A stretch of DNA of 48,612 nt. Origin: a virus. Of this stretch, positions 1,103 to 24,415 are shown piece after piece. Made by a program: the position numbers and the translations under genes. The notes under the pieces were generated by a model. That model saw only the letters and a program-made list of their open reading frames with translations. It was not told the DNA's origin and did not search any database. Every line of letters begins with the position of its first letter. Position 1 is the first letter of the stretch. The stretch lies in the IMG/VR virus record IMGVR_UViG_3300013132_000076, positions 1-48,612 of that record, one strand, 5' to 3'.

Positions 1103-4100
1103 TTACGCCGTGATCGTGATGTAGGCCGCTTTCGTCTCCACGTCCGTCCCAGCCGGCCCGGTGATGGTCAGCTTGACCGTCCAGGAGCCCGTCGTGAAGA
1201 GGTGGTCGACGTACTTGCCGGTTTTGTTGATGGTCGAGCCGCCGAGGGTTAGCTCCCACTCGTAGGTGTCGACCTTGCCCACGCACTTGTCGGCGATGAG
1301 GCCGATGCGCTTGGAGCCTCCGCTGCCGCTCGTCGAGGTGGCCGAGAAGTCGGCGGCAAGCGTGATGCTCGGGCTGTTGTGGAGCATCTGCCACACGAGA
1401 GCGCAGTTCTGCTCGATGCGGCGGCCGGGGCCGCCGAACTCGCCCCATGCCCGCATGACCGTCAGGGCATCGGCCAGGCTGGCCGTGCTCGTGAGGCGCT
1501 GGATGCATGTGTCCGCGGCAGAGCTCGAACCGGCCAGGTCGCCCTGGTACTTGTAGGGTGCCACGAGGTTGGAGATTGCCGTGTCCTCCGAGCCGCCGAT
1601 CAGCTCGGACTCGCCGATGGCGCGGCCAAACGCCAGGCCGACCTCGGCGGTCCCGAACGAGAACGTCTCGGTGTTGACCACGGTGCCGAAGGCGTCAGCC
1701 GTGCCGTTGTCGATCAGGATCTCGGTGACCGTGACGAAGTGCTTGGTCGTCTGGAAGGTCTGGGTTGCGGCTCCACGCCCCTGCGCGACGATGGTGTCCG
1801 AGATGACGGACGACACCTGGCCGTTGCTCGAGCCGTCGACGTAGGTGTTGAAGCCGGTCCCCGTGATGCGGAATGTTCGCTTCTTGGCGTTGGTGTAGGT
1901 CGAGCCTCCGGTGATGGTCAGCCTGATCGGCGTCGGAATGAACGCCTGCGTGAGCCCGACCGAACTGCCGTACTGCGTTCCGCTGTTGCTGTTGCTGAGC
2001 GTAAAGGCCGTGCCGGCCGTGGCCGGGTTGGCCGGAACCTGCGACGACGCGCCAGAAACCGTGGCGTAGTGCGTGGCGGCGACGGTCGGGTACGTCGACG
2101 GCCGGATGGCGAGGCCGGTGATAGGGTTGAACTCCGGCATCGTCGCCTGGCTCCCGTAGACGATCCAGTCAGCGGCGCTGTTCGCCGGCGGCGTGGAGTC
2201 GAAGAACAGCACGGGATTGCCGGATGCGTCGACGCGGCGAGCCACTGGCATGTAGATGTGGTGCCCGGTGTCGACCGATGGCGTCACGTCCCACAGATAG
2301 TCCTTGATGCCGGCGATGCGCGCCGCGTCTTGCGTGCGGAGCAGGTCGACGCCGATGCGCACGCCATCGAGCGACGATCCGGCCGGGATGAACACGTTGC
2401 ACAGCGCCGACACGGCGTTGGCGAACTTGGCTTCGTCTCGGCCGGCGGTCAGGTAGAACACGCAGAGCTGGCTCGATCCGCCGTTGCTCACGCCAAACGG
2501 AGCCTGCTTGGTGTTCTTGTTGGTGTAGCAGGTGTAGAGCCCGTTGGGCATCAACGAGCTGCGGAGGATGCCGTTGACGTTCGACACCCAGCGGGCGGCG
2601 TTGAAGGTCGCGGTCTTGGGAACGCTGCCCCACACCACCGCGCTCGAGGCCGAGTCAAAGTGCGCGTTGGCGATGGCGAGCCACTGAGAGAACTGGAGAA
2701 TGCCGTAGGCGAAGTCCCGCGTCCCGGCGAAGCCTCGGCCGCCAGGGGGCGTTCGCGCATCGGGCTGATTGAACGCGATCCCCAGGTGCTCCCAGAAGTG
2801 CATCCGCACCTCCATCGCCGTCATCCAGACGTAGAGCTTGGAGAGCGGGTCATTGGTGAGCAGGAACAGCGCGATGTCGGGGCCGGTGAGCCGCTGCGAG
2901 TGCTGCTGGTCGATGTTGTTGATGTTGTCGTTGCCCTCGTACAGGGGGAGCTGGCGCTGCGCGCGCCCGAAGTTCCAGAACTCCGTTCCTGCGGGCGTAC
3001 CAGAAACGGCGATCACCCTGATGTCGGTGACCTTCTTGAACTGGCTGGTGGTGCGCCAGATCTTGTTGCTGCTGTAGCCGCCGCTTTGGCCGGCGCAGAC
3101 GATCTCCTCTGTCACGGCGATGTCGAACTCGCCGGTCCCCGTGATGCGGAACGTGATGGAGTCGCCCACATCCCAGGTCGAGCCGCCGATGAGCGTCACT
3201 TCGACAGGGACAGACTCGTCCGCGCCAGGTCCGAGCACAGACACGGAGGGCGGCGAGTCGGGCGGTGCGGCGTTGGCCTGCCGCAAGTATCCGGCACCGC
3301 GGAACTCGAGGTCGAGGGCCAAGCCGCTGCCGGGTACGCTCTGCGCCCACCAGTCGGCGACGCCGGCGCTCGTGTCGCCGAAATAGTCGAGCGGCGTCGA
3401 GCCCACTCCGCTGATGACGCCAGCGCGCGTCGGGTTGTAGTCGGAGTCGAGAATGATCTCCGCGCGCAGCCTGGGGTTGTTGAGCGGGAGGCAGACGAAC
3501 GGACCGAACTTGACACCTGTGGTGCCGTTGTGCGTCCAGCGCCGGTCGCGCCGCTGCCATGTGCCCTCCTGCCCGGTCGGGCCTCCGGTGTGCCATGTGG
3601 GGGACACAGGCAGGCCGCTCAGGTTGTAGTACATCGCTCCATCGCAGCGCGAGTGCATGCGCAGCTGTTGCACCTTGAGCTGTTCGATGGCGGCGTTGCG
3701 CACGTCGAGGGCGTGCGGAGCACCGTAGTCGGAAAGCATCCCGACGCCGCTGGTGAGTCCGCCGTACGTCTGGTTGGCACCGGGCCACATCCAGCCTTGC
3801 GGCGTGTAGCCTTCGTCTTGCGCCTCGTCCGAGGTGTACGGCAGGAGATCGTTCAGCCTCTGCTTTGCTATGTCGGCCTCTTCGGTGAAGTCCGGGTCCC
3901 AGGACGTGAGCGGCTTCGACGGCAGCCCCTCAGGCTTCATCGACCACCCGCCGTAACGGCTCCAGTCGGAGCGCCCGTAGACGAGCTTGGCGTAGGGCGT
4001 GGTCGCGCTCGGATGCAGCGCGAAGCGGAACGACCGCTCCATCATCAGCGGCATCACATGCCGCCGGTTGAGATCGGTCGCCTGGATCTGGCGCACGAGC

Positions 4101-5089
4101 GACTGAACATCGTTGCCGGCGCTGAACTCGAAGAATGCGCTGTCGGCTGGGCTGCCGGAGTCGCGCATCTCGGCCGTCATCTTCCAGGTGTTGGCGCCGG
4201 TGAGCGGCTCGAGCGCAGAGATGCCGCGAAGCAGGAGCCGCGTGAACGTGAAGTCCAACGTGCGCATGGCCCCGAAGCCAACCTGGTTCGTCTGGAGTTC
4301 GCCGCCCAGCGGGTCCTTGGGATCGAAGGATCCGCCGATGGGGCCGCCTGTGCGCTCCTCGATGACTCCGTTGTGCCAGTTGATGATGAACTGCACCTCG
4401 GGCGTGTGCGCCATCACGGTCGCCCAGACGTGGACGTACCCGTAGCTGCCGCCGGCCCTCATCGGGATGTGCTTGTAGAGCGTGCGCTTGAGCGGCCCCC
4501 AGGTGTGGTAGCCGTTGAGCTGCCGGGGCTCGGTCCACATCTTGCGGATGGTGAGCGCGCCAGTGAGCGGGTCCTCGATTTGCCCGAAGCCAGTCAGGGT
4601 CGCGCGATCCGAGAAGATGTCGTTGCCGCCGTTGCGCTGCCCCTCAAGGCTGAACTTGATCCCGGGTCCTTCGCCGACCACCGGGCCTAACCCGCCGAAG
4701 TTGGCGACGGCCCATGCGTCGGCGTCGATGAGCGACCGCTGTTGCTTGCTCGTCGTGAAACCGCCAGCATCGGTCTGATCGGCGAAGACGAGCACGTCGC
4801 CGGAAACCACGTCCATGACGAAATCCGTGCCGCTCGAGTCGGTCACGTTGAACGTGATCTCGTAGTAGTCATGCAGCGCCGTGCGCGCGATGAGGTCGGC
4901 CTGGGTCTGATACCAGGATGTGTCCAGGGACGGAAGACGCCGAACGCCGAAGCGGCTTTGCCCGGTGAGGGTGTCGCGCGGGACAGTACACGTCACCGAT
5001 ACGAGGTACGGGAGCGCCGGCTCCGACTCGATCTTGAAGTGCTGGATAGCGCGACCGTTGACGACTTCTGCGGGTTGCAGCGTGGGCAT
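1103..5089 (-). CDS. Large PKD-domain protein, putative receptor-binding or polysaccharide-acting protein
   Basis: 1,328 residues from ATG at 5089 with an AGGAG ribosome-binding site 7 bases upstream. There is no signal peptide. Two related beta-rich repeats occur at roughly residues 625-705 and 1053-1150; both contain a GGST...TFRITGTG core and end WNFGRA or FSFGTAE, like the ITVTG modules of phage surface proteins. Residues about 705-900 (NIDQQHSQRLTGPDIALFLL, then RDFAYGILQF) look helical and resemble alpha/alpha-toroid carbohydrate-active proteins, which is a weak call. The last 55 residues look like a PKD domain (YEWEL, then GSWTVKLTITGPAGT). It has its own terminator and lies outside the virion operon, so a tail fibre or a released depolymerase are both possible. 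Confidence 0.6.
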   Translation of the reverse strand: MPTLQPAEVVNGRAIQHFKIESEPALPYLVSVTCTVPRDTLTGQSRFGVRRLPSLDTSWYQTQADLIARTALHDYYEITFNVTDSSGTDFVMDVVSGDVLVFADQTDAGGFTTSKQQRSLIDADAWAVANFGGLGPVVGEGPGIKFSLEGQRNGGNDIFSDRATLTGFGQIEDPLTGALTIRKMWTEPRQLNGYHTWGPLKRTLYKHIPMRAGGSYGYVHVWATVMAHTPEVQFIINWHNGVIEERTGGPIGGSFDPKDPLGGELQTNQVGFGAMRTLDFTFTRLLLRGISALEPLTGANTWKMTAEMRDSGSPADSAFFEFSAGNDVQSLVRQIQATDLNRRHVMPLMMERSFRFALHPSATTPYAKLVYGRSDWSRYGGWSMKPEGLPSKPLTSWDPDFTEEADIAKQRLNDLLPYTSDEAQDEGYTPQGWMWPGANQTYGGLTSGVGMLSDYGAPHALDVRNAAIEQLKVQQLRMHSRCDGAMYYNLSGLPVSPTWHTGGPTGQEGTWQRRDRRWTHNGTTGVKFGPFVCLPLNNPRLRAEIILDSDYNPTRAGVISGVGSTPLDYFGDTSAGVADWWAQSVPGSGLALDLEFRGAGYLRQANAAPPDSPPSVSVLGPGADESVPVEVTLIGGSTWDVGDSITFRITGTGEFDIAVTEEIVCAGQSGGYSSNKIWRTTSQFKKVTDIRVIAVSGTPAGTEFWNFGRAQRQLPLYEGNDNINNIDQQHSQRLTGPDIALFLLTNDPLSKLYVWMTAMEVRMHFWEHLGIAFNQPDARTPPGGRGFAGTRDFAYGILQFSQWLAIANAHFDSASSAVVWGSVPKTATFNAARWVSNVNGILRSSLMPNGLYTCYTNKNTKQAPFGVSNGGSSQLCVFYLTAGRDEAKFANAVSALCNVFIPAGSSLDGVRIGVDLLRTQDAARIAGIKDYLWDVTPSVDTGHHIYMPVARRVDASGNPVLFFDSTPPANSAADWIVYGSQATMPEFNPITGLAIRPSTYPTVAATHYATVSGASSQVPANPATAGTAFTLSNSNSGTQYGSSVGLTQAFIPTPIRLTITGGSTYTNAKKRTFRITGTGFNTYVDGSSNGQVSSVISDTIVAQGRGAATQTFQTTKHFVTVTEILIDNGTADAFGTVVNTETFSFGTAEVGLAFGRAIGESELIGGSEDTAISNLVAPYKYQGDLAGSSSAADTCIQRLTSTASLADALTVMRAWGEFGGPGRRIEQNCALVWQMLHNSPSITLAADFSATSTSGSGGSKRIGLIADKCVGKVDTYEWELTLGGSTINKTGKYVDHLFTTGSWTVKLTITGPAGTDVETKAAYITITA

Positions 5090-5993: not shown

Positions 5994-7061
5994 TTAGCCC
6001 CAGGGGAGTTCTTCGCCGATAGAAGCAACGCGCCCGGCCTCGGGCACGCCGATCTTGTTGTTGATGATAGCGAGACAGCAGGCCGCGTACTCGTGCGCCT
6101 TGACGCGCTGGTCGAGCGGCAGCTTCTGCGCCTTGTTCACGATATCGAGCAACAGGGCGTGGCGACCGCCACCCTTGCCGCCCTTCACGGTGTCGCGCCA
6201 GGTGGGGGCACGCTCGGACAGCTTGCCCTTCGGCACGGGCTGGTCGCACCAAGACGAGAACACGTCGCAACGCACCTCGAATGCGGTATCGAGGATGGTC
6301 TCGGCGTCATAGGCCCAGATGGGCGGCACGGAGTCGTCTGCGGCATCCTGGGGCGGCTCAGGGGACGGCTCGGGGTCGGGCTGGACTTCCGGCTCAGGCA
6401 TCGGCGCCGCCGCGCTCTGGACCTCAGGCATCGTCTCCAGCAGGCCCTCGAGCGTGCGGGGGCGAGCCTGCGGTGCCTTGACCTCGAAGGACGCCTCCCG
6501 GGGGATGTCGTCGACCTCCTCGGCGCCTCCGATGCCGCCGAACACGTCGGCGAAGCCCTCGCGTGCGGCGAACCACCACGCCCGCCACGTCGCCTGACGG
6601 ATGGGGTAGTCGGTCCACGGGCCGGCCTTGCCCCACAGCTTCGCGCGCTTCGCGTCCTGCGTGCTGAACGTGCCGACGAACTCGCCGGCCATGCCCTTGC
6701 GCCGCATCTTGACGATGACCTCGAAGTCGTCGGGCTTGCCGAGCACCTTGATCTCGGGGGCGCCGTCGAGCATTCCGCTTGCCATCAGGATTGCCTTGCC
6801 AGCGTCGCCGAAGATGGACGGGCGCCCGTTGAGTACCTTGATGTTGGACAGTGCGAACATCGGCGGCAGGCCCAGCTCGAGCCCGAGCTGGATCTTCACG
6901 GCCACGCCCTGCGGCGTGTCGCCCTTCGGAGCGTAGCCGCTCGCCACGATGAGGTTGCTCATGCGCTGTAGGTCTTCGAGGTCGCGCACCTCGACGCCGG
7001 ACGAGCCGATCTTGACGGACTTCGCGGGGACGCTACTGGGGGAGGATTGCGGGGCGGTCAT
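5994..7061 (-). CDS. recT: RecT-like single-strand DNA annealing protein
   Basis: 355 residues from ATG at 7061, which overlaps the end of the nuclease gene by 29 bases. The core matches RecT-type annealing proteins. It has VAVKIQLGLELGLPPMFALS (about 53-72), then VLNGRPSIFGDAGKAILMAS (about 76-95) and a WTDYPIRQATWRAWWFAAREGFADVFGG segment (about 149-176) typical of the family. A long acidic, proline-rich linker (about 205-235) leads to a helical C-terminal region. RecT proteins anneal single strands exposed by a partner 5'-3' exonuclease, and that partner is the adjacent upstream gene. The start was chosen because the frame upstream is low-complexity Arg/Ser sequence antisense to the nuclease. 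Confidence 0.85.
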   Translation of the reverse strand: MTAPQSSPSSVPAKSVKIGSSGVEVRDLEDLQRMSNLIVASGYAPKGDTPQGVAVKIQLGLELGLPPMFALSNIKVLNGRPSIFGDAGKAILMASGMLDGAPEIKVLGKPDDFEVIVKMRRKGMAGEFVGTFSTQDAKRAKLWGKAGPWTDYPIRQATWRAWWFAAREGFADVFGGIGGAEEVDDIPREASFEVKAPQARPRTLEGLLETMPEVQSAAAPMPEPEVQPDPEPSPEPPQDAADDSVPPIWAYDAETILDTAFEVRCDVFSSWCDQPVPKGKLSERAPTWRDTVKGGKGGGRHALLLDIVNKAQKLPLDQRVKAHEYAACCLAIINNKIGVPEAGRVASIGEELPWG

Positions 7062-8034
7062 GTGATAGGGCCTTGGCTTGTTTGGTGATGGAGGAATCGA
7101 GACGGAACACTCTGAACTCGGACGTGCGCGCTTCGCGCGGAGGATCGTTGCGGACTTGGGTCTTCCACGTCCCGGCCTTCTTGCCGTTGATGGTGAACAC
7201 CTCGGCCGGTCCGATCTCGGACTTGAGACGAGCCTCGAGCGCGCCGGCGTGTTCTTCCAGCGCCTTGAGCTCGGCCTTGATGTTGGCGAGGTCCACCAGG
7301 AGCTCGGGATGCTCGAGCTCTTTCGAGAGCCCGGCGACACTCTTCGGGAACTGGTCTCCGATGAAGTCGACATCGGCGGCCAGGGCCGCGGGCGGCACGT
7401 CGCCATCGAGCGAACGCCAGAACTGCACGGCCAGCGCCGCAAGACGCTCCACGAACTGGCGGTTGAGCTCGATGTCGGGCGCATCCTTGCGGCTGTTGCC
7501 GCCGATGATGGCGCCGATAGCGCCGCGCTCAATGCCAGTGCAGAACATCTCGATCTGAACCTGGATCTGCACCGAGAGCGGCGGAACAACCTCGCCAGCC
7601 TCAACCCAGCGGTCGAGCAGGAACGCCGACACGTTCTTGAGTTGGAGCACGCGCACCTCAGCCTCGGATTCTCCGGCTGCCGGGCGGACAATGAATCGGT
7701 CCGGCGTGCATTGGATAGGGAACTGCGGGTGTCGAACGACAACCTGGGCCGCGTCGCGCAGCCCGTAGAACTCCTGCGGCGTCACCACATGAACGCCGTG
7801 GGCGTGGGCGTACCACCTGGCGTTGCCGTCCTCGAGGAACTTGCCGGCCAGCAGCGCCTCGGTGTCCTCGAGTGTCGATGCACGGTCGAGCTTCTTCTTG
7901 CTCCATAGCTGGAGCGGCGTCATGTAGGGGTTCTGCCCAACGAGCGCGGCGATCTCGGAGGCTCCGAGCATCTTGGCGCGCTCGGCGTGCCAGGCGTTTT
8001 CGGTTGCGCAGGGGATGATGATAGGGCTATGCAT
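7033..8034 (-). CDS. YqaJ/lambda-Exo-type recombination exonuclease, catalytic Glu replaced by Gln
   Basis: 333 residues from ATG at 8034, overlapping the upstream gene by 8 bases. YqaJ-family landmarks appear in order. These are GASEIAALVGQNPYMTP (about 24-40), GKFLEDGNARWYA (about 64-76, conserved Glu), CTPDRF with Asp112, then VLQLKNVS (about 129-136), and the VQIQVQIEMFCTG glutamine motif (about 155-167). In the family the ExK box supplies a metal-binding Glu and a catalytic Lys. Here the Glu position is Gln131 while Lys133 is kept. The C-terminal third is a coiled region (ELKALEEHAGALEARLKSE). With the RecT-like gene it forms a standard two-gene recombination module. Activity may be reduced unless another residue substitutes. 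Confidence 0.8.
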   Translation of the reverse strand: MHSPIIIPCATENAWHAERAKMLGASEIAALVGQNPYMTPLQLWSKKKLDRASTLEDTEALLAGKFLEDGNARWYAHAHGVHVVTPQEFYGLRDAAQVVVRHPQFPIQCTPDRFIVRPAAGESEAEVRVLQLKNVSAFLLDRWVEAGEVVPPLSVQIQVQIEMFCTGIERGAIGAIIGGNSRKDAPDIELNRQFVERLAALAVQFWRSLDGDVPPAALAADVDFIGDQFPKSVAGLSKELEHPELLVDLANIKAELKALEEHAGALEARLKSEIGPAEVFTINGKKAGTWKTQVRNDPPREARTSEFRVFRLDSSITKQAKALSHDRPAILPQ

Positions 8035-8257
8035 AGTAGGGCTCTCGCTCGAATGCCCCTGTGGGGGCAAGGTATGCGGCTTGGCCGCCGTTGACGCTCA
8101 CGCGGAGCTTCGGAATGTACCCCGGCGCGTGAGCATAGCCGGTCGGTACGTCGTCTGTTTCAAGATGAACTTCTATCCATCCGTCGGGATGCAGGTAGGC
8201 GCTGGCGCGCACGTAGGCGTGGGCTTGGCGCGTGGGGAAGTGGTGTAGGTCACTCAT
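8027..8257 (-). CDS. Hypothetical protein
   Basis: 76 residues from ATG at 8257. The start shares ATGA with the stop of the small membrane peptide gene upstream, and the gene runs 8 bases into the nuclease gene, so it is embedded in a coupled chain. The sequence is mixed and looks folded: MSDLHHFPTRQAHAYVRASA, then DGWIEVHLETDD and a beta-rich end with IPKLRVSVNGGQAAYL. No family is recognised. The coding call rests on the tight junctions and balanced composition, not on homology. Confidence 0.65.
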   Translation of the reverse strand: MSDLHHFPTRQAHAYVRASAYLHPDGWIEVHLETDDVPTGYAHAPGYIPKLRVSVNGGQAAYLAPTGAFEREPYYA

Positions 8258-11963: not shown

Positions 11964-12203
11964 ATGGCGAAGCGGAACCATCACAACCCGGCCTACGACA
12001 AGGCGTACGCGGCGCGTCCCGAGCAGAAGAAGGCTCGAGCTCGCCGGAACGCTGACCGCGCGGAGGCCGAGCGCCGTGGCCTGGTGAAGAAGGGCGACGG
12101 CAAGGAAGTCGACCACGAGCGCACGATGGCGCGTGGAGGCTACCGAGTCGTCAGTCGCCGCACGAACCGCATCAAGGCGAACAAGAGCCCGGCGCGGAAG
12201 TGA
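11964..12203 (+). CDS. HNH-like small basic protein
   Basis: 79 residues from ATG at 11964. It starts MAKRNHHNPAYDKAYAARPE, has a long basic helix (QKKARARRNADRAEAERRG), then KKGDGKEVDHERTMARGGYR and ends VVSRRTNRIKANKS. The GDGKEVDH...GG...VVSRRTNR pattern matches a common phage family related to HNH nucleases, in which Asp-His and a later Asn-Arg frame the metal site. Only one clear His remains in the core, so nuclease activity is uncertain. The stop TGA overlaps the next ATG (TGATG). Confidence 0.65.
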   Translation: MAKRNHHNPAYDKAYAARPEQKKARARRNADRAEAERRGLVKKGDGKEVDHERTMARGGYRVVSRRTNRIKANKSPARK

Positions 12204-12301
12204 TGGCATGCTTCTGGATCGTCGTGACCGCCCTTGCGCTTGTGGCGCTGGGCGTCATCGTGGGGTCCTTCCTTCGGATGAGAGACAACGACTACTACTA
12301 G
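12203..12301 (+). CDS. Small single-pass membrane peptide
   Basis: 32 residues from ATG at 12203 (TGATG overlap with the upstream stop). A hydrophobic helix from about residue 3 to 23 (CFWIVVTALALVALGVIVGS) is followed by a short polar tail (RMRDNDYY). Function unknown. Its place in an early operon next to a second membrane peptide suggests a role at the host membrane. Confidence 0.55.
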   Translation: MACFWIVVTALALVALGVIVGSFLRMRDNDYY

Positions 12302-12310
12302 GAGACGAAC

Positions 12311-12469
12311 ATGACTTGGGACGCGGTATTCACTTCGGCGGTTGGTCAGCTTCTCGCGGCGGGGATCCTCGTGGGGTGCTGGCTGGTGTGGAAGACGGCG
12401 GTTCTGGTGGCGCAGATTGCCCGTGCGATCCGTCGCGTGCAGGTCGACGTGACATGCAAGAAGGCGTGA
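12311..12469 (+). CDS. Small membrane protein
   Basis: 52 residues from ATG at 12311 with a clear GGAG ribosome-binding site 7 bases upstream. A transmembrane helix runs from about residue 8 to 28 (SAVGQLLAAGILVGCWLVWK) followed by an amphipathic helix (TAVLVAQIARAIRRVQVDV) and a short Lys-containing tail. It could be an accessory lysis or membrane-protection protein, but nothing specific is diagnostic. Confidence 0.6.
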   Translation: MTWDAVFTSAVGQLLAAGILVGCWLVWKTAVLVAQIARAIRRVQVDVTCKKA

Positions 12470-12641: not shown

Positions 12642-12910
12642 CCATGCCCGAGCAGCGCGAGCGCGCGGTTGATGCCCTCGAGGCGATGGTCGTTGAGTGG
12701 TTCAAGCGGTGGCCGAGCGCGGCCGAAGGTCGCCGTCACCTCCGTCGCGTCATGCGCCACTACCCGACTTCTCGCCACATCGTTCATCTCTTGCGCGCCG
12801 AGGAGACGCGACGAACCTGCAATCACAAGAGACTCATGGCTGCACGCGACCACAACCTGTTCCTGTGCACCAACTGCAATACCCAGGTTGATCCGCTGAA
12901 AACCCGATGA
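12638..12910 (+). CDS. Hypothetical protein with C-terminal zinc-like motif
   Basis: 90 residues from ATG at 12638, overlapping the upstream stop. The first two thirds are helical and basic (EQRERAVDALEAMVVEWFKR, then GRRHLRRVMRHYPTSRHIVH). The end has CNHKRL and CTNCNTQ, i.e. Cys-x-His and CxxC, which could hold one zinc. No family recognised. It belongs to the coupled chain that leads into the sulfatase gene. Confidence 0.6.
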   Translation: MTMPEQRERAVDALEAMVVEWFKRWPSAAEGRRHLRRVMRHYPTSRHIVHLLRAEETRRTCNHKRLMAARDHNLFLCTNCNTQVDPLKTR

Positions 12911-13128
12911 ACATCTCCGAGCGGCTGCTGGTCAAGATTCGTGATCTTCTCGACGAGGCCGGCATCGACCGTGCCGTGGTCGTGATCGACGATCCTGACG
13001 ACAACGTGATCCACCACCACGCGCGCGGTTCCGCGTGCTGGCGCGTCGGCGCTGGCGCGCTGATCGAAGGCCGCGCGCGCGGAGAGCTCGTGTTTGTCCC
13101 TGCTGGCTCGAACGAAGACGACCAATGA
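12907..13128 (+). CDS. Hypothetical protein upstream of the sulfatase
   Basis: 73 residues from ATG at 12907 (ATGA overlap with the upstream stop). An amphipathic helix (ISERLLVKIRDLLDEAGID) precedes a beta-rich part (RAVVVIDDPDDNVIHHHARG) and an acidic tail. Its stop shares bases with the sulfatase ATG (ATGA at 13125-13128), so sulfatase translation is probably coupled to it. Function unknown. Confidence 0.6.
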   Translation: MNISERLLVKIRDLLDEAGIDRAVVVIDDPDDNVIHHHARGSACWRVGAGALIEGRARGELVFVPAGSNEDDQ

Positions 13129-14402
13129 TCCTCGCTACCCTCCTGCTCCTCTGCCAGACGCCCAACGTCCTCGTCATCCTCGGCGACGACCTGGGGTGGC
13201 CCGAGCGCCACCTGATGCCTGCGCTCGACGAGATTGCGACGCGCGGCGTCACGTTCACGCGCGCCTACACGTTCCCTGTGTGCTCGCCAACGAGGTACGC
13301 GGCGCTGACCGGGCGCTACCCGCGACGCGCCGGCATCGGCGACGTGGTGAACGCGCACAACAGCGCGAGCGGTGCGAGTCCAGCGCCCGACCGGCTGGCC
13401 GTCATGCTTCCCGAGGCGCTCAAGCCGACGCACGAGACGCTGCTCGTCGGCAAGTGGCACTTGGGCCGGGCTTCGGTCGGAGCCAGGACGGACCTCCTTG
13501 CTCTCACCGAGTCCGGCCCGTTCGTCTCTGGCTTCGACTCTTGGCTCGCCGGCAACCCGAACAGCATCTCGCAGGGGCCGGGCTCGAGCGGGTACTACAA
13601 CTGGTATCGGGTGGACGACGCGCAGATCACGCAGGGCGCTACCGTCTACGCGACGCACGCGCAGCGCGACGCCTTCATCGGCTGGTGGGGCTCGACGCCG
13701 GGGCCGAAGCTCGGCTGGCTGGCGTTCAACTCGGCGCATCAGCCGTTCGACCCGCCGCCCGGGCGCGCGCCGACGGGCACCGTGCGCGGCGACTACGAGC
13801 AGCTCGTGGCCGACCTCGACGACTCGTTGCAGGCCGTGCTCGCCGCCGTGGACCTCTCGACCACATGGGTCGTCTACGTCGGAGACAACGGCACGCCCGA
13901 CGACGCGCGGCCCGCGGGCACGCCATCGGGCTACTGGAAGGGCACATGCTACGAGGGCGGCGTGCGCGTCCCGCTCATCGTCAGCGGCCCGGGCGTCACG
14001 AGCGGGATCTGCTCCGACCGGCTGGTGTCCGTGCTCGACATCGCGCCGACGCTGCTCGAAGTGCTCGAGGTCGATTCGCGCGGCTTCGAGGACGGGCGCT
14101 CGTTTGCCGACGAGCTCGGCGCGTGGGCAGGCCAGCCCGAGCGCGCGTTCGTGTTCACCGAGCGGTACGACACGCCGGCGGCCAACCCGAGCATCGGGTA
14201 CGACGACCAGGCGGTCATCGAGGCGTGCTGGAAGCTGCGGCGCGTGGACCGTGACGGCCCGGGCGCTGCGCCCAGCGTGGACAGCGCCTACTACCTGCCC
14301 AGCGACCCCTACGAGCAGAATCCCATCGACCCGGCCTTGCTTCCGCCGGGGCTGCGCGCAAGGCTGTACGCCGAACTGACATCTGTCCCTTCGAGATTCT
14401 GA
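13125..14402 (+). CDS. Sulfatase (formylglycine-dependent alkaline-phosphatase superfamily)
   Basis: 425 residues from ATG at 13125. It hydrolyses sulfate esters in this family; the substrate here is unknown. Motifs appear in order. NVLVILGDDLG carries metal ligands Asp21 and Asp22. CSPTR (53-57) has the Cys that maturation converts to formylglycine, followed by LTGRYPRRAG. GKWHLG has Lys110 and His112, SAHQPF has His205, and VGDNG has Asp254 and Asn255. Lys272 is followed by CYEGGVRVP. All expected active-site residues are present, so it looks functional. The leader MILATLLLLCQT is short and signal-like, implying export. No formylglycine-generating enzyme is encoded nearby, so host maturation would be needed. 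It is expressed from the early rightward operon. Confidence 0.93.
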   Translation: MILATLLLLCQTPNVLVILGDDLGWPERHLMPALDEIATRGVTFTRAYTFPVCSPTRYAALTGRYPRRAGIGDVVNAHNSASGASPAPDRLAVMLPEALKPTHETLLVGKWHLGRASVGARTDLLALTESGPFVSGFDSWLAGNPNSISQGPGSSGYYNWYRVDDAQITQGATVYATHAQRDAFIGWWGSTPGPKLGWLAFNSAHQPFDPPPGRAPTGTVRGDYEQLVADLDDSLQAVLAAVDLSTTWVVYVGDNGTPDDARPAGTPSGYWKGTCYEGGVRVPLIVSGPGVTSGICSDRLVSVLDIAPTLLEVLEVDSRGFEDGRSFADELGAWAGQPERAFVFTERYDTPAANPSIGYDDQAVIEACWKLRRVDRDGPGAAPSVDSAYYLPSDPYEQNPIDPALLPPGLRARLYAELTSVPSRF

Positions 14403-14404
14403 CA

Positions 14405-14761
14405 ATGAAACGCATCCTCCTCAACTCCGCCTACGTTGCCTCGTGCGTCCTGCTGTGCGTGTGCGTGCTGTCGGCGTGCATCGCCAACCCCCGCAAGGCC
14501 GCGGCGCACCGCGAACTCGTGGAGGAGATCACCGCTCAGCTTCTCGATGCGGGCGTGGTGCCCACGCGCGAGCAGCTCGAGCGGCTGGACGCGCGCATCG
14601 CCACGGTCGAGAGCGAACCCGACAACGTGCTCCCGCAGTGGGCGGAGCTGCCTACCGCCGTTGCAGCCGCGATGCTGGGTGTGAAGACGCTCCCCTCGCA
14701 CTGGTTCCGGGGTCCGTTCGACCGGACCGCGTGCCTTCCGGTGCCTGGTCAGGCGACTTGA
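14405..14761 (+). CDS. Putative lipoprotein
   Basis: 118 residues from ATG at 14405, two bases after the sulfatase stop. A classic lipoprotein signal is visible: basic MKR, a hydrophobic core, and lipobox LSAC with Cys25, so the mature protein would be lipid-anchored. Next come a helix (HRELVEEITAQLLDAGVVPT), an acidic stretch, and a mildly hydrophobic segment (PTAVAAAMLGVKTLPSHW). Its position after the sulfatase suggests a joint envelope role. An outer spanin is an alternative, but no inner spanin or endolysin is adjacent. Confidence 0.65.
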   Translation: MKRILLNSAYVASCVLLCVCVLSACIANPRKAAAHRELVEEITAQLLDAGVVPTREQLERLDARIATVESEPDNVLPQWAELPTAVAAAMLGVKTLPSHWFRGPFDRTACLPVPGQAT

Positions 14762-14820: not shown

Positions 14821-14985
14821 CGGCGCGTGGACCGTGACGGCCCGGGCGCTGCGCCCAGCGTGGACAGCGCCTACTACCTGCCCAACGACCCCCACGAGCA
14901 GAATCCCATCGACCCGGCCTTGCTTCCGCCGGGGCTGCGCGCAAGGCTGTACGCCGAACTGACCTCTGTCCCCTCGAGACTCTGA
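14821..14985 (+). pseudogene. Sulfatase C-terminal fragment (duplicate)
   Basis: Encodes a near-copy of the last 54 sulfatase residues, from RRVDRDGPGAAPSVDSAYYL to SVPSRL and stop. No start codon with a ribosome-binding site precedes it, and no catalytic motif is included. It is a remnant of the duplication. The 59 bases before it (14762-14820) match neither the sulfatase nor any gene I recognise. Confidence 0.8.
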
Positions 14986-14987
14986 CC

Positions 14988-15101
14988 ATGAAGCGCATCC
15001 TTGCCATTGTCGCGTACGTCGTGTCGTGCGTTCTGCTGTGCGGGCTGATCGTCGCGTGCAAGACCTCGCCCGAGGCCATCGCCGCGCCACCCAAGTCGTG
15101 A
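14988..15101 (+). CDS. Second small lipoprotein, paralogue of the first
   Basis: 37 residues from ATG at 14988. It opens MKRILAIVAYVVSCVLLCGL and ends its signal with lipobox IVAC (Cys24), leaving only a 13-residue mature tail (KTSPEAIAAPPKS plus the Cys). The opening matches MKRILLNSAYVASCVLLCVC of the 118-residue lipoprotein, so it arose by the duplication and lost the rest. The tiny proline-containing tail resembles short outer-spanin-like lipoproteins, but that is only a size argument. Confidence 0.6.
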   Translation: MKRILAIVAYVVSCVLLCGLIVACKTSPEAIAAPPKS

Positions 15102-16613: not shown

Positions 16614-16972
16614 TACAGGCCCTCCACGGCAGCGCGAAGCGTCAGGAGGTTGCGTTCGTCCCGTGACACCGGACGGACCTCAGCGGCAAGCTGGTTCCAC
16701 CGCGAGTAGAGCAGACACGGCGAGGCGTTCTGCGCGTACCAGACGCTCGGCGGGTTCAGTAGGAGGCGCCGCGCGCGGTCCAGGTACATCCAGCTCGATC
16801 CTGCCAGCTTGAACCCCAGCTTGACGAAGTGGAGATCCTTCGGGGTCCAGACGTAGGGCGTCCCTCGCGTCTCCTCCCACAGCCGCGTCCAGCCGTCTAC
16901 TGCCTCTTGGTGCGGCCCTGCCGGGCGCCGCCTTGCCTTGTTCCCATCCTCAGCGAAGAGGAATCTCTGCAT
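16613..16972 (-). CDS. Replication-initiation-like protein
   Basis: 119 residues from ATG at 16972 with GGAG 8 bases upstream. The segment EAVDGWTRLWEETRGTPYVW, then TPKDLHFVKLGFKLAG, SSWMYLDRARRLLLNP and LLYSRWNQLAAE, matches a helical module common at the ends of phage replisome-organiser proteins (W...Y-x-W...D...K-L...LL..WN.L). Such proteins bind the origin and recruit loader and helicase. Here the module stands alone without a winged-helix part, so it may be a minimal version. It is the first gene of a leftward three-gene operon. Confidence 0.5.
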   Translation of the reverse strand: MQRFLFAEDGNKARRRPAGPHQEAVDGWTRLWEETRGTPYVWTPKDLHFVKLGFKLAGSSWMYLDRARRLLLNPPSVWYAQNASPCLLYSRWNQLAAEVRPVSRDERNLLTLRAAVEGL

Positions 16973-17001
16973 CTTGCACTCCAGAAGGCACCGGAGAGCC
17001 C

Positions 17002-17030
17002 TTGGCAACATGCCTCGGGATTCCTACTCT
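17002..17030 (+). promoter_or_regulatory. Possible late promoter
   Basis: TTGGCA (17002-17007), a 17-base spacer and TACTCT (17025-17030), facing the terminase and virion genes. The -35 box matches the consensus in five of six bases; the -10 box is weak. Confidence 0.3.
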
Positions 17031-17083
17031 CTTCGGTGCGTACCATCATGCGCGCCAGTTTGCCTCGCTTGGGCAAGGTGGTC

Positions 17084-17120
17084 AAGGGCTCGGCTGGTCT
17101 GCACTCCCAGCCGAGCCCTT
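17084..17120 (+). terminator. Perfect 14-bp inverted repeat upstream of the terminase gene
   Basis: AAGGGCTCGGCTGG (17084-17097) and its exact complement CCAGCCGAGCCCTT (17107-17120), loop of 9 bases, followed on plus by CTTCTTCCGG. It ends 33 bases before the terminase ATG in the divergent gap. It could stop rightward transcripts running antisense through the replication operon. It could also be an operator or a packaging site; the sequence does not decide. Confidence 0.55.
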
Positions 17121-17153
17121 CTTCTTCCGGCGCGCGAGCACTACGCTGACGGC

Positions 17154-18437
17154 ATGGCCGAGTGGAAACTGCGAAGCGAGATGCCGGATCCGGAGTTCGA
17201 TCCGGCGCAGTACGCCATCGAGCTCAAGCGCGAGGTACCCTCCGAGGCCCTCTGGGACAACCACAGGTTCGCGCGCCTCTTCTCGAAAGACGCCGGAGTC
17301 TACGGGCCGCGCAAGGGCAACCCTCGGCGGATCGGCCTGCGTCGCTTCGTGGAGCGGTTCTTCTTCGTCAAGACGAAGGACGGCGATGTGCAGCCGTTCA
17401 TCCTCAACGACAGCCAGCGCAGGCTTCTAGCTGAGATCGTGCGGATGGAGCGCGCCGGCGTTCCCGTGCGCCTCATCATCCTCAAGGCTCGCCAGCAGGG
17501 ATTCTCAACGTTCATCGCAGCGTTGGCCGCGTGGTACTGCCTGACGCGCAAGCAGGCGCGCGCGTGCCTTGTGGCGCACCGGAAGCAGACCTCGCAAGTC
17601 ATCTTCGGCAAGGTCCGGCTGATGATCCGCTCGATGGTCAAGCAGGACCGCAAGCGATGGACGTTCGAGTTGCTCTCCGACACCGGCTCGCAGATCGTGT
17701 TCGACGAGCCGATCTTCTCGCAGATCGTGGTCGACTCGGCCGAGGTCGCCGAGCCCGGGCGCGGAGACACGGTGCAATTTCTTCACGAGTCCGAGAGTCC
17801 ATCGTGGAAGGACGCTTCATCGAAGATCGCCGCGCTGCGGCAGATCCTCCCTTCGTCCCTTGACACCTACGGGTTCTGCGAGTCGACGGCGAAGGGTGAC
17901 TCCAATCAGTTCGCCCGCGAGTTCAAGGCCGCCTGGAAGAAGTCGAGGCCGGGCAAGCCCATCGTTCTCGGGTGGAGGGCGATCTTCTTCCCGTGGTACT
18001 TCGATCAGGGGTATCGCTGGAGCTCCATCCACCGCAAGGCGCTGCCGCCCGAGCTCGAGCAGGACATCCGCGAGACGCTTGACGAGGAGGAAAAGGCGCT
18101 GCTCGAGACGACCTACCTGCGCCGCGGGCATGGCATCGTCCATGTTGACTTCGATCAGCTCGCTTGGCGGCGGTACGCCCTGGCCGAGCTGTGTCAGCGC
18201 GACCTGAACCGACTGCACGAGGAGTACCCGGCCACGCCAGAGGAGGCGTTCATCGCCTCTGGCGCCCGGTTCTTCGATCCCCTGCTCATCAAGCGGATGC
18301 GTGACGCTGTGAGCGAGCCCCTGTGGCGTGGGGAGATCACCGACCCCGAGGGCGACGCGCTTCTCGTCCGGCGCTTGCCCGGGTCCGGGCCGGACATGGA
18401 AGTCGAGGACGCCGAAGAGGTGGAGGTGGTCGATTGA
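17154..18437 (+). CDS. terL: Terminase large subunit, ATPase part (split gene)
   Basis: 427 residues from ATG at 17154. It powers DNA packaging through the portal. Walker A is KARQQGFST (about 111-119), the Walker B-like stretch VQFLHESE lies at about 207-214, and the coupling motif ESTAKG at about 243-248. The last 30 residues are an acidic linker (DMEVEDAEEVEVVD) and then TGA. No nuclease motifs follow in this frame; they are in the next gene, which starts inside the stop codon. In most tailed phages both domains form one chain, so the gene has undergone fission at the interdomain linker or is joined by recoding. No strong ribosome-binding site is seen at the start. Confidence 0.88.
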   Translation: MAEWKLRSEMPDPEFDPAQYAIELKREVPSEALWDNHRFARLFSKDAGVYGPRKGNPRRIGLRRFVERFFFVKTKDGDVQPFILNDSQRRLLAEIVRMERAGVPVRLIILKARQQGFSTFIAALAAWYCLTRKQARACLVAHRKQTSQVIFGKVRLMIRSMVKQDRKRWTFELLSDTGSQIVFDEPIFSQIVVDSAEVAEPGRGDTVQFLHESESPSWKDASSKIAALRQILPSSLDTYGFCESTAKGDSNQFAREFKAAWKKSRPGKPIVLGWRAIFFPWYFDQGYRWSSIHRKALPPELEQDIRETLDEEEKALLETTYLRRGHGIVHVDFDQLAWRRYALAELCQRDLNRLHEEYPATPEEAFIASGARFFDPLLIKRMRDAVSEPLWRGEITDPEGDALLVRRLPGSGPDMEVEDAEEVEVVD

Positions 18438-19156
18438 GGCACGGCCAGCACATCCAGAGCCCGCACGGCGGGCTGCGGATCTACTGCTACCCAGAGCCCC
18501 GCCGGAAGTACGCCATCGGGGTTGACACCTCGGCCGGCATCCGCGACGGGGACTATTCCTGCGCACAGGTCTTGGCGATGGACACCGGGGAGCAGGTTGC
18601 CGAGTGGCACGGCCTGTACCGGGCGACCATGTGGGGAACCGCCTGCGCCCGCCTAGGGTGGTTCTACAACACGGCCGTCATCGCCTTTGAGACGCACCCA
18701 TCCCCCCACGGCCTGCGGGCCTACGATGCCTGCCACCAGTACGGATACGACAACCTCTGGGTGCAGCGGAAATGGGACGACCGGGTTGGCAAGTTCATCG
18801 CCAAGAAGGGCTGGGTGCGCACCCCGCACTCAACCCTCGTGATGCTCGAGCGGGTGAGGGACGCCATCGCCAGGGGCGCCCGGGTTCACTCCGAGGGGCT
18901 CCTTGACGAGCTCGCGGCGATCACCATGAACCAGGAAAAGGGCAAGGTCGAGTCGACCGAGAACGACGACCGGGTCATGGCCTACGCCATCGCCAGCATC
19001 ATGGTCGACGACGCCTGGAGCGCCGGGGAGGCCGAGCCGGATGACAAGCCGCCGGAAGACATGGCAGAAGCCTATTGGCGTCGGCGTGAAGAAAGGCTTA
19101 GGCTCGGGGCGTCCGAGGAACCAACACCACAGGAAGTGCTCTGGGATGGAAACTAG
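18434..19156 (+). CDS. terL: Terminase large subunit, nuclease part (split gene)
   Basis: 240 residues beginning with TTG at 18434, which shares TTGA with the stop of the ATPase gene. It carries the RNase H-like nuclease of the terminase: YAIGVDTSAGIRDGDYS (Asp31, Asp40), AVIAFETHPSPHG (Glu86) and ENDDRVMAYAIASIM (Asp178/179) supply the metal-binding acids that cut concatemers. The opening HGGLRIYCYPEPRRKYAIGV is what normally continues directly from an ATPase linker. No slippery sequence is obvious at the junction, so separate, coupled translation from TTG is the simpler reading. It ends by overlapping the next ATG. Confidence 0.85.
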   Translation: MRHGQHIQSPHGGLRIYCYPEPRRKYAIGVDTSAGIRDGDYSCAQVLAMDTGEQVAEWHGLYRATMWGTACARLGWFYNTAVIAFETHPSPHGLRAYDACHQYGYDNLWVQRKWDDRVGKFIAKKGWVRTPHSTLVMLERVRDAIARGARVHSEGLLDELAAITMNQEKGKVESTENDDRVMAYAIASIMVDDAWSAGEAEPDDKPPEDMAEAYWRRREERLRLGASEEPTPQEVLWDGN

Positions 19157-19433
19157 CCTAGCCGTTGCGGCCGTCGTTGCGTGCGCGCTCCTATTCTGGG
19201 GGTGGGCCGTGCTGTGTTGGACGATCAGGGACATGCACGCGAAGACCGCCGCCGCCCTCGAACGCCAGCAGGAGATGAACACCGAGCAGGCCCGGCACAT
19301 CTGGACGCTGGCCGGCAGTCAGGATCCTGCCAAGGCCCAGGCGGTCGCCGTCCTTGAGACTGCCGGAAGGCCGCATGGGATCCACAACGACGTGCCCGCG
19401 TACCTGGACGACGCAGCCATGTCGAGGATGTGA
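19146..19433 (+). CDS. Small membrane-anchored protein between terminase and portal
   Basis: 95 residues from ATG at 19146, overlapping the nuclease gene by 11 bases. An N-terminal hydrophobic segment (about 4-27, LAVAAVVACALLFWGWAVLC) is followed by a soluble helix with Lys, Glu and Gln (TIRDMHAKTAAALERQQEMN) and a polar end. Topology is probably one membrane helix with a cytoplasmic or periplasmic helical tail. Function unknown; its place between packaging genes is unusual for a membrane protein. Confidence 0.65.
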   Translation: METSLAVAAVVACALLFWGWAVLCWTIRDMHAKTAAALERQQEMNTEQARHIWTLAGSQDPAKAQAVAVLETAGRPHGIHNDVPAYLDDAAMSRM

Positions 19434-19434
19434 G

Positions 19435-21534
19435 ATGGCGCGAAAGCACGCCAAGATCAGCGACAGTGACGCGGCCGAGTTGATCCGAAAGAGGATCGAC
19501 TTCCACGGCCAGTCGGCTCGTCGCAAGCCGTTCGAGCGGATGGTGCTCCGCAACCGCGCCTTCTTCTTCGGCAAGCAGCACTTCATCCAGGACGAGCAGA
19601 CGGGGCGCCTCAAGAACCCCACCAACGTCCCGCAGCATCGCGTCTTCTACAAGGCGAACATGATCCTCGGGAACGTGCTCCGGTCGATCCTGACCGTCAC
19701 GAACGCCCAGGGCAAGTTCGTAGTACCGCCCAAGGACAACACGCGCCAGTCGCGGCACGCGGCGTGGGTGTCGACTAAGGTGTTCGAGCACCTTGAATAC
19801 ATCCTCCAGATGCCGGAGAAGGAGCAGGTGGCGACGCTCTACGCGGCGCTGGACGGCTCGGTAATCTGGAAAGTGGCGTGGGATCCCGAGGCCGGCGAGA
19901 TGTCGCGCTTCTACTGGGGCGACGAGGCCGGCAAGACCGTGCTTCCTGATCCCGACGAGCGCACGCGCGCGATGCTCGAGGAGTCGGGCAGCTACGACGA
20001 CCTCGCCTCCGGGGAGGTGTCCGCCGAGGCGTTCCCGTGGGCTCAATGCTGGTGGGACTGGACCGCGCGCGAGGACGGCTTCGACCGCGCCCAGTGGGGT
20101 GCCACAGCCTCGGTCGTCTCACTCGACTACATCGAAGAGACATACGGCGCGAAGGCCGCCGCGATGGTCAAGCCGGACGAGGCACTGGACGGCTCGCTCT
20201 ACTACGACGAGGCGATCAGCTTCATGGCGTCGACCTACGGCGCCGTGCAGCAGTACGACGACGACGAGGAGGCGCAGGGGCCGCGCACGGTTCTTGTCGA
20301 ATACTGGGAGCGCCCGCGCCCGCAGAACGGAAACCTCGGGCGCAACCTTCACTTCGCCGGCGGGCACGTCCTCGTCAACCGCGACAACAAGTATCGCCTG
20401 ACCGGCCACCCGATCCCGCTCATCAAGCAGGACTGGATCAAGGCGCCAGGCCGCTTCATCGGCATCAGCCTCGTCGAGCAGCTCACGAGCCCGCAGCACC
20501 AATACAACTTGGCGCGCGCGACCATCGCCGAACACCAGAAGGTCTACGGGCATCCCGCGATGCTCGTGCCGAAGAACAGCGAGATCCCGACCGGACACCT
20601 CACCGTCTCGCCGGGCACCGTCCACACCTACAACCCGACCGGCGGCGAGATCAAGTTCGCGCCTTCGCCGCAGCTCCCCAAGGAGGTCGTGCAGAACGCG
20701 GAGATGGCTCGCGCCGAGATGGCCGAGATCAGCTCGCAGCAGTCGCTCGACGGCTCCAGGCTCCCCGGCCAGCTCCGCAGCGGCCCTGCGCTCGAAGCCG
20801 TGTTCGAGGAGCGGAACAAGATGCTCGGGCATCCCGCCATGAACTACATCATGGCGAAGGAGCGGATCGGCCGGCACATGCTCGCGCTGGCAAAAAAGTG
20901 GTACACCCCCGAGCGCGTCATCAGCTACGTCGGCGAGGACAAGAAGTTTCGCGCCCTGTCATTCTCGCGCGCAGACCTCCAGACCGACCTCCGCGTCATC
21001 GTCGACCGCTCCAAGCTCATCAGCTCGCCGTCCGCCGTCCGGGCGCGTGTGCTCGAGATGATCCAGCTCGGCGCCGTCGACCCGATGAACAACCCGGACG
21101 ACCGCGAGGCCGTGTTCAAGGCCCTCGAGTTCGGCGGCGTCGAAGAAATCATCTCCGACCGGCTCCAGGAGGAAGAGAACCAGGAGCGCGAGATCGACGA
21201 GATCATCACGAACCCGACGATCTGGATGGAGCCGCGCATCGACATGATGGCTCCATCAGGCGAAGGAGGCGCCCCCGTTACCACGCAGGGCTACCCGACT
21301 GGCGAGTTCGACGACCACCGCGCGCACATGCGCGTCCTCGTCCGCTTCATCCGCTCCGAGGAGTTCCGCAAGCTCGACCCGATCACGCAGAGCATCATCC
21401 AGCACCACGCCCGGGCTCACCAAACGATCTTGCAACAGCAGGAGATGCAGGCAATCATGATGCAGCAGGCCCTAGCCGGCGGAGCCGGACAGAAGGGCCA
21501 GCCCAGCAAACCGAAAGCGATGGCCCCACAATGA
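19435..21534 (+). CDS. Portal protein
   Basis: 699 residues from ATG at 19435, 1 base after the previous stop. The portal forms the dodecameric DNA channel at the capsid vertex. Length, position after the terminase and features all fit podovirus portals: KPFERMVLRNRAFFFGKQHF near the start, an acidic middle, then GHPIPLIKQDWIKAPGRFIG and SLVEQLTSPQHQYNLARATI (about 340-370). A long helical region follows (AEMARAEMAEISSQQSLDGS, PALEAVFEERNKMLGHPAMN). The C-terminus is Gln/Met-rich (ILQQQEMQAIMMQQALAGGA), probably a barrel or flexible tail. Its stop overlaps the next start by 4 bases. Confidence 0.85.
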   Translation: MARKHAKISDSDAAELIRKRIDFHGQSARRKPFERMVLRNRAFFFGKQHFIQDEQTGRLKNPTNVPQHRVFYKANMILGNVLRSILTVTNAQGKFVVPPKDNTRQSRHAAWVSTKVFEHLEYILQMPEKEQVATLYAALDGSVIWKVAWDPEAGEMSRFYWGDEAGKTVLPDPDERTRAMLEESGSYDDLASGEVSAEAFPWAQCWWDWTAREDGFDRAQWGATASVVSLDYIEETYGAKAAAMVKPDEALDGSLYYDEAISFMASTYGAVQQYDDDEEAQGPRTVLVEYWERPRPQNGNLGRNLHFAGGHVLVNRDNKYRLTGHPIPLIKQDWIKAPGRFIGISLVEQLTSPQHQYNLARATIAEHQKVYGHPAMLVPKNSEIPTGHLTVSPGTVHTYNPTGGEIKFAPSPQLPKEVVQNAEMARAEMAEISSQQSLDGSRLPGQLRSGPALEAVFEERNKMLGHPAMNYIMAKERIGRHMLALAKKWYTPERVISYVGEDKKFRALSFSRADLQTDLRVIVDRSKLISSPSAVRARVLEMIQLGAVDPMNNPDDREAVFKALEFGGVEEIISDRLQEEENQEREIDEIITNPTIWMEPRIDMMAPSGEGGAPVTTQGYPTGEFDDHRAHMRVLVRFIRSEEFRKLDPITQSIIQHHARAHQTILQQQEMQAIMMQQALAGGAGQKGQPSKPKAMAPQ

Positions 21535-22942: not shown

Positions 22943-24415
22943 ATGGCTGTCACCGATGCGGGTCTTGGCACCGCCTGGAACTTCTCCCAGGGGTTTGCCT
23001 CGACCCTGATGACCGACTTCTACCAGCCCTGGATCAACGACGCGAAGAACAACGCGAGCGTGCTCCTCGGGATGGTTCCCGAGACTTCCGACCAGATCAA
23101 CGGCAAGTTCGTCATCGAACCTGTCAAGTTCGGTCGAAACGTCGACGCCTTCGGCTTCGTGCGGGACAACGGCAAGTTGCCGGACCCGGGCTCGGCTAAG
23201 GCTCGTCCGTACGCCTACCGCGTCCGCCAGATGTTCGCTCGCGCGAAGATCAGCGGCCGGATCATGCGTGCCTCGCAGTCCAACCCGGTCGCGTACGTCG
23301 ATGCCCTCGACGACGTGATGCAGCAGATGGCCGATGACATGGCCGTCGAGCTGAACCGCATCCTGCACTCGGACGGCTCCGGCCGCATCGCCGAGCTGTC
23401 GGCTGTGACGGGCGGCGGCCTCACGACGGGACAGGTGGACCTCCGCCTGAACCAAAACATCGAGAGCGTCGCCTCCTGTACGTCGTCCCCGGCTCAGTTC
23501 CTCAAGGACGACTACATCAGCCGTCGCGTCGCCATCGTCGCCCCAGACGGCACGGTGCGCGGCATCCGTCGTGTCATCGCCGTCGTCAGCGAGACGGTCG
23601 GCCCTCCGTCTGCGGCTCGTGTCACGACCGGCGATCCCATCACGGGCGCCGCCGTGGCTCTCCCCGCCGGAACGGCCATCGGCGACTGGATCGTCACGGC
23701 CGCTCGCAACACGGCGGACGGGGGCGGCCAAGCCGAGTCGATCAACACCGGCTTCAAGAACGAGCCGATGGGGATTGCCGGCATCTTCGCCGACACGGGC
23801 GTTCTCGACGGCCACGGCATCGCCACGGCCCCGTCGTACACCGTCAACGGTGGCACGATGAGCTACACCCCGAACGACGACTACGACGAGACGAACGTCG
23901 CCGCCGCTGGCTTCCAGGGGATCCCGGTTGACTCGACGCACCCGTGGAACCGCTCCATCGTCATGGATGGCGCTGGTGTCCTGCGTGTGCCCACCGAAGA
24001 GCTGCTCCAGCTCGTGATGGATCGTCTCGAGGAGGAGAACAACGCCGAGTGCGAGGTTCTCCTGTCCGGTTTCGGCGAGCGTTCCGCCTACGGCGAGACG
24101 CTGACGCCGGACAAGCGGTACAACAACACGACCACGCTGTCGGGTGGTTGGACCGGCCTGGACTTCAAGGGCAAGACCTGGGTGGTCGACCGCCACTGTC
24201 TCAAGAACCGGATCTACTTCCTCGGTCTCCGAGGTGGCGGCTTCCGGCAGCACGTCGAGACGACCTTCCAGGCTCTCGACCCGCTGGGTCCGATGTGGTA
24301 TCGGCTCCAGGACGACGACGAGTACCACGCCGCGTGGGTCGCCGGAATGAACTTCGGCGTCGGCATCCGCAACAAGTGCGGCGCCGTCGTGACGGACATC
24401 CGGCGCTCGACGTGA
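22943..24415 (+). CDS. Major capsid protein
   Basis: 490 residues from ATG at 22943 with a strong AAGGAG ribosome-binding site, the best in the window, as expected for the most abundant virion protein. Sequence features fit HK97-fold capsid proteins: a helical N-arm (NFSQGFASTLMTDFYQPWIN), SGRIMRASQSNPVAYVDALD then DVMQQMADDMAVELNRILHS (about 108-150, the spine-helix region), and a beta-rich body with an insertion-like segment. Near the end comes TWVVDRHCLKNRIYFLGLRG. It is followed by a hairpin at 24436-24462 that may stabilise or trim the transcript. Confidence 0.85.
   Translation: MAVTDAGLGTAWNFSQGFASTLMTDFYQPWINDAKNNASVLLGMVPETSDQINGKFVIEPVKFGRNVDAFGFVRDNGKLPDPGSAKARPYAYRVRQMFARAKISGRIMRASQSNPVAYVDALDDVMQQMADDMAVELNRILHSDGSGRIAELSAVTGGGLTTGQVDLRLNQNIESVASCTSSPAQFLKDDYISRRVAIVAPDGTVRGIRRVIAVVSETVGPPSAARVTTGDPITGAAVALPAGTAIGDWIVTAARNTADGGGQAESINTGFKNEPMGIAGIFADTGVLDGHGIATAPSYTVNGGTMSYTPNDDYDETNVAAAGFQGIPVDSTHPWNRSIVMDGAGVLRVPTEELLQLVMDRLEEENNAECEVLLSGFGERSAYGETLTPDKRYNNTTTLSGGWTGLDFKGKTWVVDRHCLKNRIYFLGLRGGGFRQHVETTFQALDPLGPMWYRLQDDDEYHAAWVAGMNFGVGIRNKCGAVVTDIRRST

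Follow-up and report, generated by a model that had tools for sequence, protein, structure and literature searches.

Organization of the Sulfatase Locus

The stretch of DNA analyzed here (the window) comprises the 48,612 bases of an IMG/VR record. On its plus strand, at 13125-14402 and exactly where the preliminary description had placed it, lies an S1-type formylglycine (FGly) sulfatase gene, read as an uninterrupted translation of 425 amino acids with a short hydrophobic N-terminus (MILATLLLLCQ-TPNVLVILGDD). A GTG start upstream, at 13035, was rejected: it is not conserved, and in a related but diverged phage (IMGVR_UViG_3300033076_001042, hereafter L003) the gene starts at the equivalent ATG, after AAGGAG. 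The TGA (13126-13128) of a small plus-strand ORF (12907-13128), which lacks a counterpart in the aligned portion of L003, overlaps the sulfatase ATG (13125-13127). Directly downstream, two nucleotides separate the sulfatase stop from the ATG at 14405 of a predicted lipoprotein of 118 aa (14405-14761, plus strand, lipobox VLSAC). The ATGA overlaps said to embed the gene thus hold for the upstream junction but not for the downstream one. Two predicted membrane products with counterparts in L003 are also encoded on the plus strand, a 32-aa peptide (12203-12301) and a 52-aa protein (12311-12469) that is holin-like by size only.

The sulfatase has a minus-strand RecE/RecT module on one side and the terminase on the other, and it shares its strand with the packaging and virion genes, which leaves its earlier assignment to an early operon unsupported. 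The minus-strand module encodes a RecT-like annealing protein (5994-7742, start uncertain; phrog_561, E 7.8e-13) and a RecE-like exonuclease (7033-8070; phrog_434, E 4.1e-53). On the plus strand follow the terminase large subunit in a first part (16938-18437; phrog_2, E 8.7e-11) and a second part (18323-19156; phrog_24361, E 3.2e-5), a P22-like portal protein (19354-21534; PF16510, E 5.4e-12; phrog_156, E 2.7e-26), the major capsid protein (22943-24415; phrog_14242, E 1.5e-33) and a tail protein (46147-47766; phrog_1197, E 2.3e-15). With terminase, portal, capsid, tail and RecE/RecT genes surrounding the sulfatase, the window is tailed-phage DNA whose flanks are not host chromosome, and the gene is phage-encoded, as had been proposed. 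No integrase was recognized among the window proteins searched, and the tRNA and Rfam scans of the window gave no match. When GenBank phages were searched with the capsid and portal, only distant matches were obtained, among them Podoviridae ctLwi270, a spring podovirus sequenced as a complete genome, whose capsid is distantly related to that of the window.

Several other features of the record were observed. The terminase large subunit is carried by two overlapping ORFs (16938-19156), a split that recurs in L003 and in ctLwi270, where two terminase CDS are annotated. The virion region contains two very large ORFs, at 26983-34662 (2559 aa; a weak internal-virion-protein match only, phrog_511) and 38481-45779 (2432 aa). 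A 1328-aa ORF on the minus strand (1103-5089) matches nothing in Pfam or PHROGs; its coding signal is strong.

Fold and Active Site of the Encoded Protein

The window protein contains a single Pfam Sulfatase domain (PF00884, residues 13-314), and its score of 115.2 bits (E 4.7e-33) against a curated cut-off of 25 bits is far beyond chance. In a phmmer search of PDB chains the top matches were sulfatases only. Structure prediction, which the preliminary description had proposed as a check, gave the same answer: the AlphaFold2 model, built from a 26-sequence alignment, reached a pLDDT of 87 and a pTM of 0.91 and has the alkaline-phosphatase-like sulfatase fold, all 50 of the 50 best listed PDB fold matches being sulfatases (Foldseek against S1 sulfatases, E 1.8e-25 to 1e-23, query TM 0.72-0.76). 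The protein also matches phrog_19870, as do all seven viral relatives scanned; PHROGs gives this family no function, and these matches indicate that it is probably a sulfatase family.

Every motif named in the preliminary description is present in the translation. The maturation site CSPTR (13281-13295, plus strand; residues 53-57) includes Cys53, the predicted precursor of formylglycine, and the conserved Arg57, and it fits the published maturation consensus C/S-X-P/A-S/X-R (PMC10154612); GKWHLG, SAHQPF, DNG and EGGVRVP occupy residues 109-114, 203-208, 254-256 and 277-283. In an alignment of 26 rows comprising viral and bacterial relatives, the catalytic set (C53, R57, K110, H112, H205 and K272) and the Ca2+-ligand positions (D21, D22, D254 and N255) are invariant, in agreement with the intact active site claimed earlier, and in the viral alignment all ten positions are kept except K272 in one end-truncated row. 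The extended SulfAtlas patterns are not matched: the catalytic and Ca-binding 1 patterns are each missed at a single position (A60 and G20), and the third, G-Y-x-[TSCV]-x(3)-GK, fails even in loosened form. These misses are not decisive, because many relatives, bacterial ones included, miss the extended patterns too, and the source paper itself reports that they do not recover every sulfatase (PMC5066984). The protein has a complete S1 active site and is apparently a working sulfatase.

The preliminary description had also stated that no formylglycine-generating enzyme (FGE) is encoded here, and searches of the window and of ten related viral records, several of them fragments, revealed no FGE-family gene. 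With none found there, activation would rely on the host. FGE-family genes were present in 10/10 bacterial genomes checked. Three of six kin Planctomycetota genomes have a very strong match (E below 1e-60). FGE genes have been reported in Pseudoalteromonas phages (PMC10232697). In four viral relatives (L021-L024) CxPxR is replaced by CSQSR or CGQSR, which fall outside the FGE consensus; maturation in that branch may differ accordingly. In these four proteins the other catalytic residues are all retained wherever the sequence is complete.

Conservation in a Second Phage and Occurrence in Other Viruses

A search of related phage genomes, likewise suggested as a check, found the gene at the same place in L003, whose gene order is that of the window. 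The sulfatases of the two phages are 88% identical, compared with 81% for the lipoprotein, 51% for the portal and 48% for the capsid. The dN/dS of the sulfatase between the two (about 0.22) points to purifying selection. In the sulfatase, 24% of the four-fold degenerate sites differ (54/229), against 48% (87/180) for the portal, 47% for the capsid and 44-45% for the terminase and lipoprotein. Because synonymous divergence of the sulfatase is half that of the portal, the gene appears to have a more recent shared ancestry than its neighbors, which suggests exchange of the sulfatase between phages. A recent partial duplicate of 14238-14459 lies at 14821-15042 on the plus strand, comprising the last ~53 sulfatase codons and the start of the lipoprotein gene; 5/165 bases differ in its sulfatase part, and it is a further sign of rearrangement at this locus. 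After the duplicate, a second short lipoprotein-like ORF runs from about 14989 (MKRILAIVAYVVSCVLLCGLIVACKTS...).

Viral contigs of IMG/VR were scanned with family alignments (viral relatives L017-L025 and L106-L115), and 14 further viral sulfatases of the subfamily were identified, in several unrelated capsid and portal types. Among the fetched stretches, a terminase was found for L017, L021, L106 and L112, portal phrog_145 for L018, L107 and L109, and capsid phrog_29 with tail genes for L019 and L020; L022 and L110 gave only weak matches, and there was no PHROG match for the single flank protein tested in each of L108 and L111 or for the two tested in L023. The hallmark genes recovered support a phage origin for the relatives that have them, and the subfamily is thus spread over three or more unrelated portal/capsid backgrounds. 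One viral protein has a different architecture: the 957-aa product of L115:9176-12046 joins an extra N-terminal region (phrog_5417) to a C-terminal sulfatase domain and is encoded near a Tail_P2_I gene, making it a possible tail-fiber sulfatase.

Kinship With Planctomycetota Sulfatases

In a sparse tree, with bacterial sequences found by pattern, the 16 viral sequences formed one clade (99/94 support). For denser sampling, profiles were searched against 392 genomes of Planctomycetota, 338 of Verrucomicrobiota and 297 of Acidobacteriota, with best scores of 361, 308 and 266 bits, respectively. The denser tree contains a subfamily of 22 members (100/98 support) in which 16 phage genes and six bacterial genes are intermixed. 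The five bacterial genes seen closest to the viral sequences (L116, L119, L125, L128 and L132) and the sixth candidate (L121) all came from the Planctomycetota search. A virus-only clade was rejected after this denser sampling (viral monophyly, p-AU 6.7e-52). The preliminary description had named clades of phage sulfatases as a finding that would support it; many further phage sulfatases do exist, but they do not form a pure phage clade.

Six changes of the virus/bacterium label are required on the tree, and well-supported branches force three of them. The neighbors of the four bacterial members checked (L116, L132, L125 and L128) are ordinary chromosomal genes, for example Mfd, MMPL and MBOAT. 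The mixing of phage and Planctomycetota genes in one subfamily points to repeated host-phage transfer, in which the gene has probably moved more than once, in one direction or the other, between Planctomycetota-like bacteria and phages. This gene kinship may hint at the host phylum of the phage. A capsid profile and alignment search of the 392 Planctomycetota genomes detected no prophage of the window type.

Possible Function and Alternative Explanations

The N-termini of the family, classed by eye, are diverse. That of the window protein is a hydrophobic MILATLLLL helix with no positive charge, unusually short for a signal peptide, and short hydrophobic N-termini also occur in L003, L018, L020, L106 and L110; signal peptides are clear in L017, L107 and L109, those of L108 and L112 are lipobox-like, and no export signal was seen at the N-termini of L019 and L021-L024. 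Together with the adjacent lipoprotein and the small membrane proteins, these N-termini favor an exported enzyme acting on envelope or matrix glycans of the host, and the conserved lipoprotein and small membrane protein neighbors fit an envelope-acting or host-exit module.

Overall, the best explanation, to which we give about even credence, is an intact, host-activated and exported FGly sulfatase from a Planctomycetota-type pool that desulfates host glycans late in infection. A tailed phage would have acquired the gene from that pool directly or via other phages. The FGE of the host would convert Cys53 to formylglycine, and the short hydrophobic N-terminus would carry the enzyme through the membrane, where it would strip sulfate esters from envelope, capsule or matrix glycans; phage progeny could then escape without sticking to sulfated debris, much as other viruses employ receptor-destroying sialidases and depolymerases. 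The substrate, the host and the timing in this scheme are what we infer. Production of sulfated exopolymers has been reported for PVC bacteria (Pontiella, PMC7356697). More tentatively, and with somewhat more doubt than belief, we suggest that phages of bacteria with sulfated matrices (Planctomycetota/PVC-like) may repeatedly have captured this subfamily as a receptor-destroying or host-exit enzyme. If so, the sulfated glycans of such bacteria would act as receptors for phages or as barriers to them.

The enzyme could instead be a component of the particle or tail that desulfates the capsule during adsorption. The gene after the sulfatase encodes a tail or similar virion-type protein in L019, L020, L021 and L023 (a minor tail gene directly after it in L019 and L020), which would also suit a virion enzyme, and the 957-aa protein of L115, with its sulfatase domain behind an extra N-terminal region and near the Tail_P2_I gene, points the same way. 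However, the window protein lacks an additional domain and starts with a hydrophobic stretch, the genes beside it encode a lipoprotein and small membrane proteins rather than tail components, and signal peptides occur in many relatives, so a virion-associated depolymerase seems unlikely. Sulfatases also commonly serve sulfur and carbon scavenging. A deep groundwater review lists viral sulfatases as sulfur-cycle auxiliary genes (PMC10029852), and sulfate or carbon freed from sulfated organics might feed the infected cell. Such a metabolic role is rather improbable here: the search of window proteins recognized no transporter, sulfur-assimilation or glycoside-hydrolase gene, the private benefit from an exported enzyme within one infection cycle would be small, and planctomycete-type hosts are already rich in sulfatases, many of their genomes containing dozens of candidate stretches.

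With the export signals or lipoboxes seen in relatives, the enzyme would sit at the cell surface, where desulfation could also block the adsorption of competing phages. The chemistry of such superinfection exclusion, or receptor change, is mechanistically that of late desulfation of host glycans, but no integrase was recognized in the proteins searched, and we regard it as quite improbable. That the protein is not a sulfatase in practice, but a superfamily member working as an FGly phosphodiesterase or phosphonate hydrolase, or that the gene is passenger DNA, is very improbable. The fold families overlap, the window protein has a weak NCBIfam match to PehA, and the extended SulfAtlas patterns are missed at the two positions given above; the best fold matches, however, are carbohydrate and aryl sulfatases, and purifying selection and conservation in L003 speak against a passenger.

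Comparison With Known Sulfatases

The window protein shares the fold, active-site residues and FGly motif of S1 sulfatases (SulfAtlas S1, PF00884), including human 4-sulfatase (1FSU), the carrageenan sulfatase PsS1_19B and a Pedobacter enzyme (7STT); unlike these, to which it is ~20-25% identical, it is short (425 aa) and phage-encoded. The chromosomal sulfatases of Planctomycetota (L116 and L132 from one genome, L125 and L128) agree with it in subfamily and motifs at about 33-37% identity, but differ in genomic context and, in L116 and L132, in their longer, conventional signal peptides; the Planctomycetota relatives are of the exported type. Giant-virus sulfatases (Yasminevirus and Tetraselmis virus 1) have the same fold at 12-18% identity; they belong to eukaryotic viruses and are not close kin. 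In the BFVD viral fold library these were the only close viral matches, with none from a phage. Phage depolymerases and sialidases are virus-encoded enzymes that edit surface glycans. The window enzyme would differ from them in removing sulfate without cutting sugar chains and in needing FGly activation by the host; it would thus be a phage enzyme whose activity needs a post-translational modification by the host.

Among 50,697 GenBank phage records there was no match above ~40% identity (best full-length match 22-26%), and the sole direct mention of viral sulfatase genes found in the open-access literature searched was one line in the deep-groundwater review (PMC10029852). Given the lack of a phage fold match and of a GenBank phage above 40% identity, and with this literature touching on the topic only in passing, the recurrence of one sulfatase subfamily across unrelated tailed phages appears to be undescribed so far, while its chemistry is already known. 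The subfamily offers a handle on which glycans must be crossed by phages of sulfatase-rich, poorly cultured bacteria.

Two kinds of GenBank entry were set aside as phage sulfatases. Fecal 'Bacteriophage sp.' records are unannotated, and a contig of Acinetobacter phage MD-2021a (CAKLQF020000021) resembles bacterial chromosome over the part that was read (porin, vanillate demethylase); this and similar records can inflate counts of phage sulfatases.
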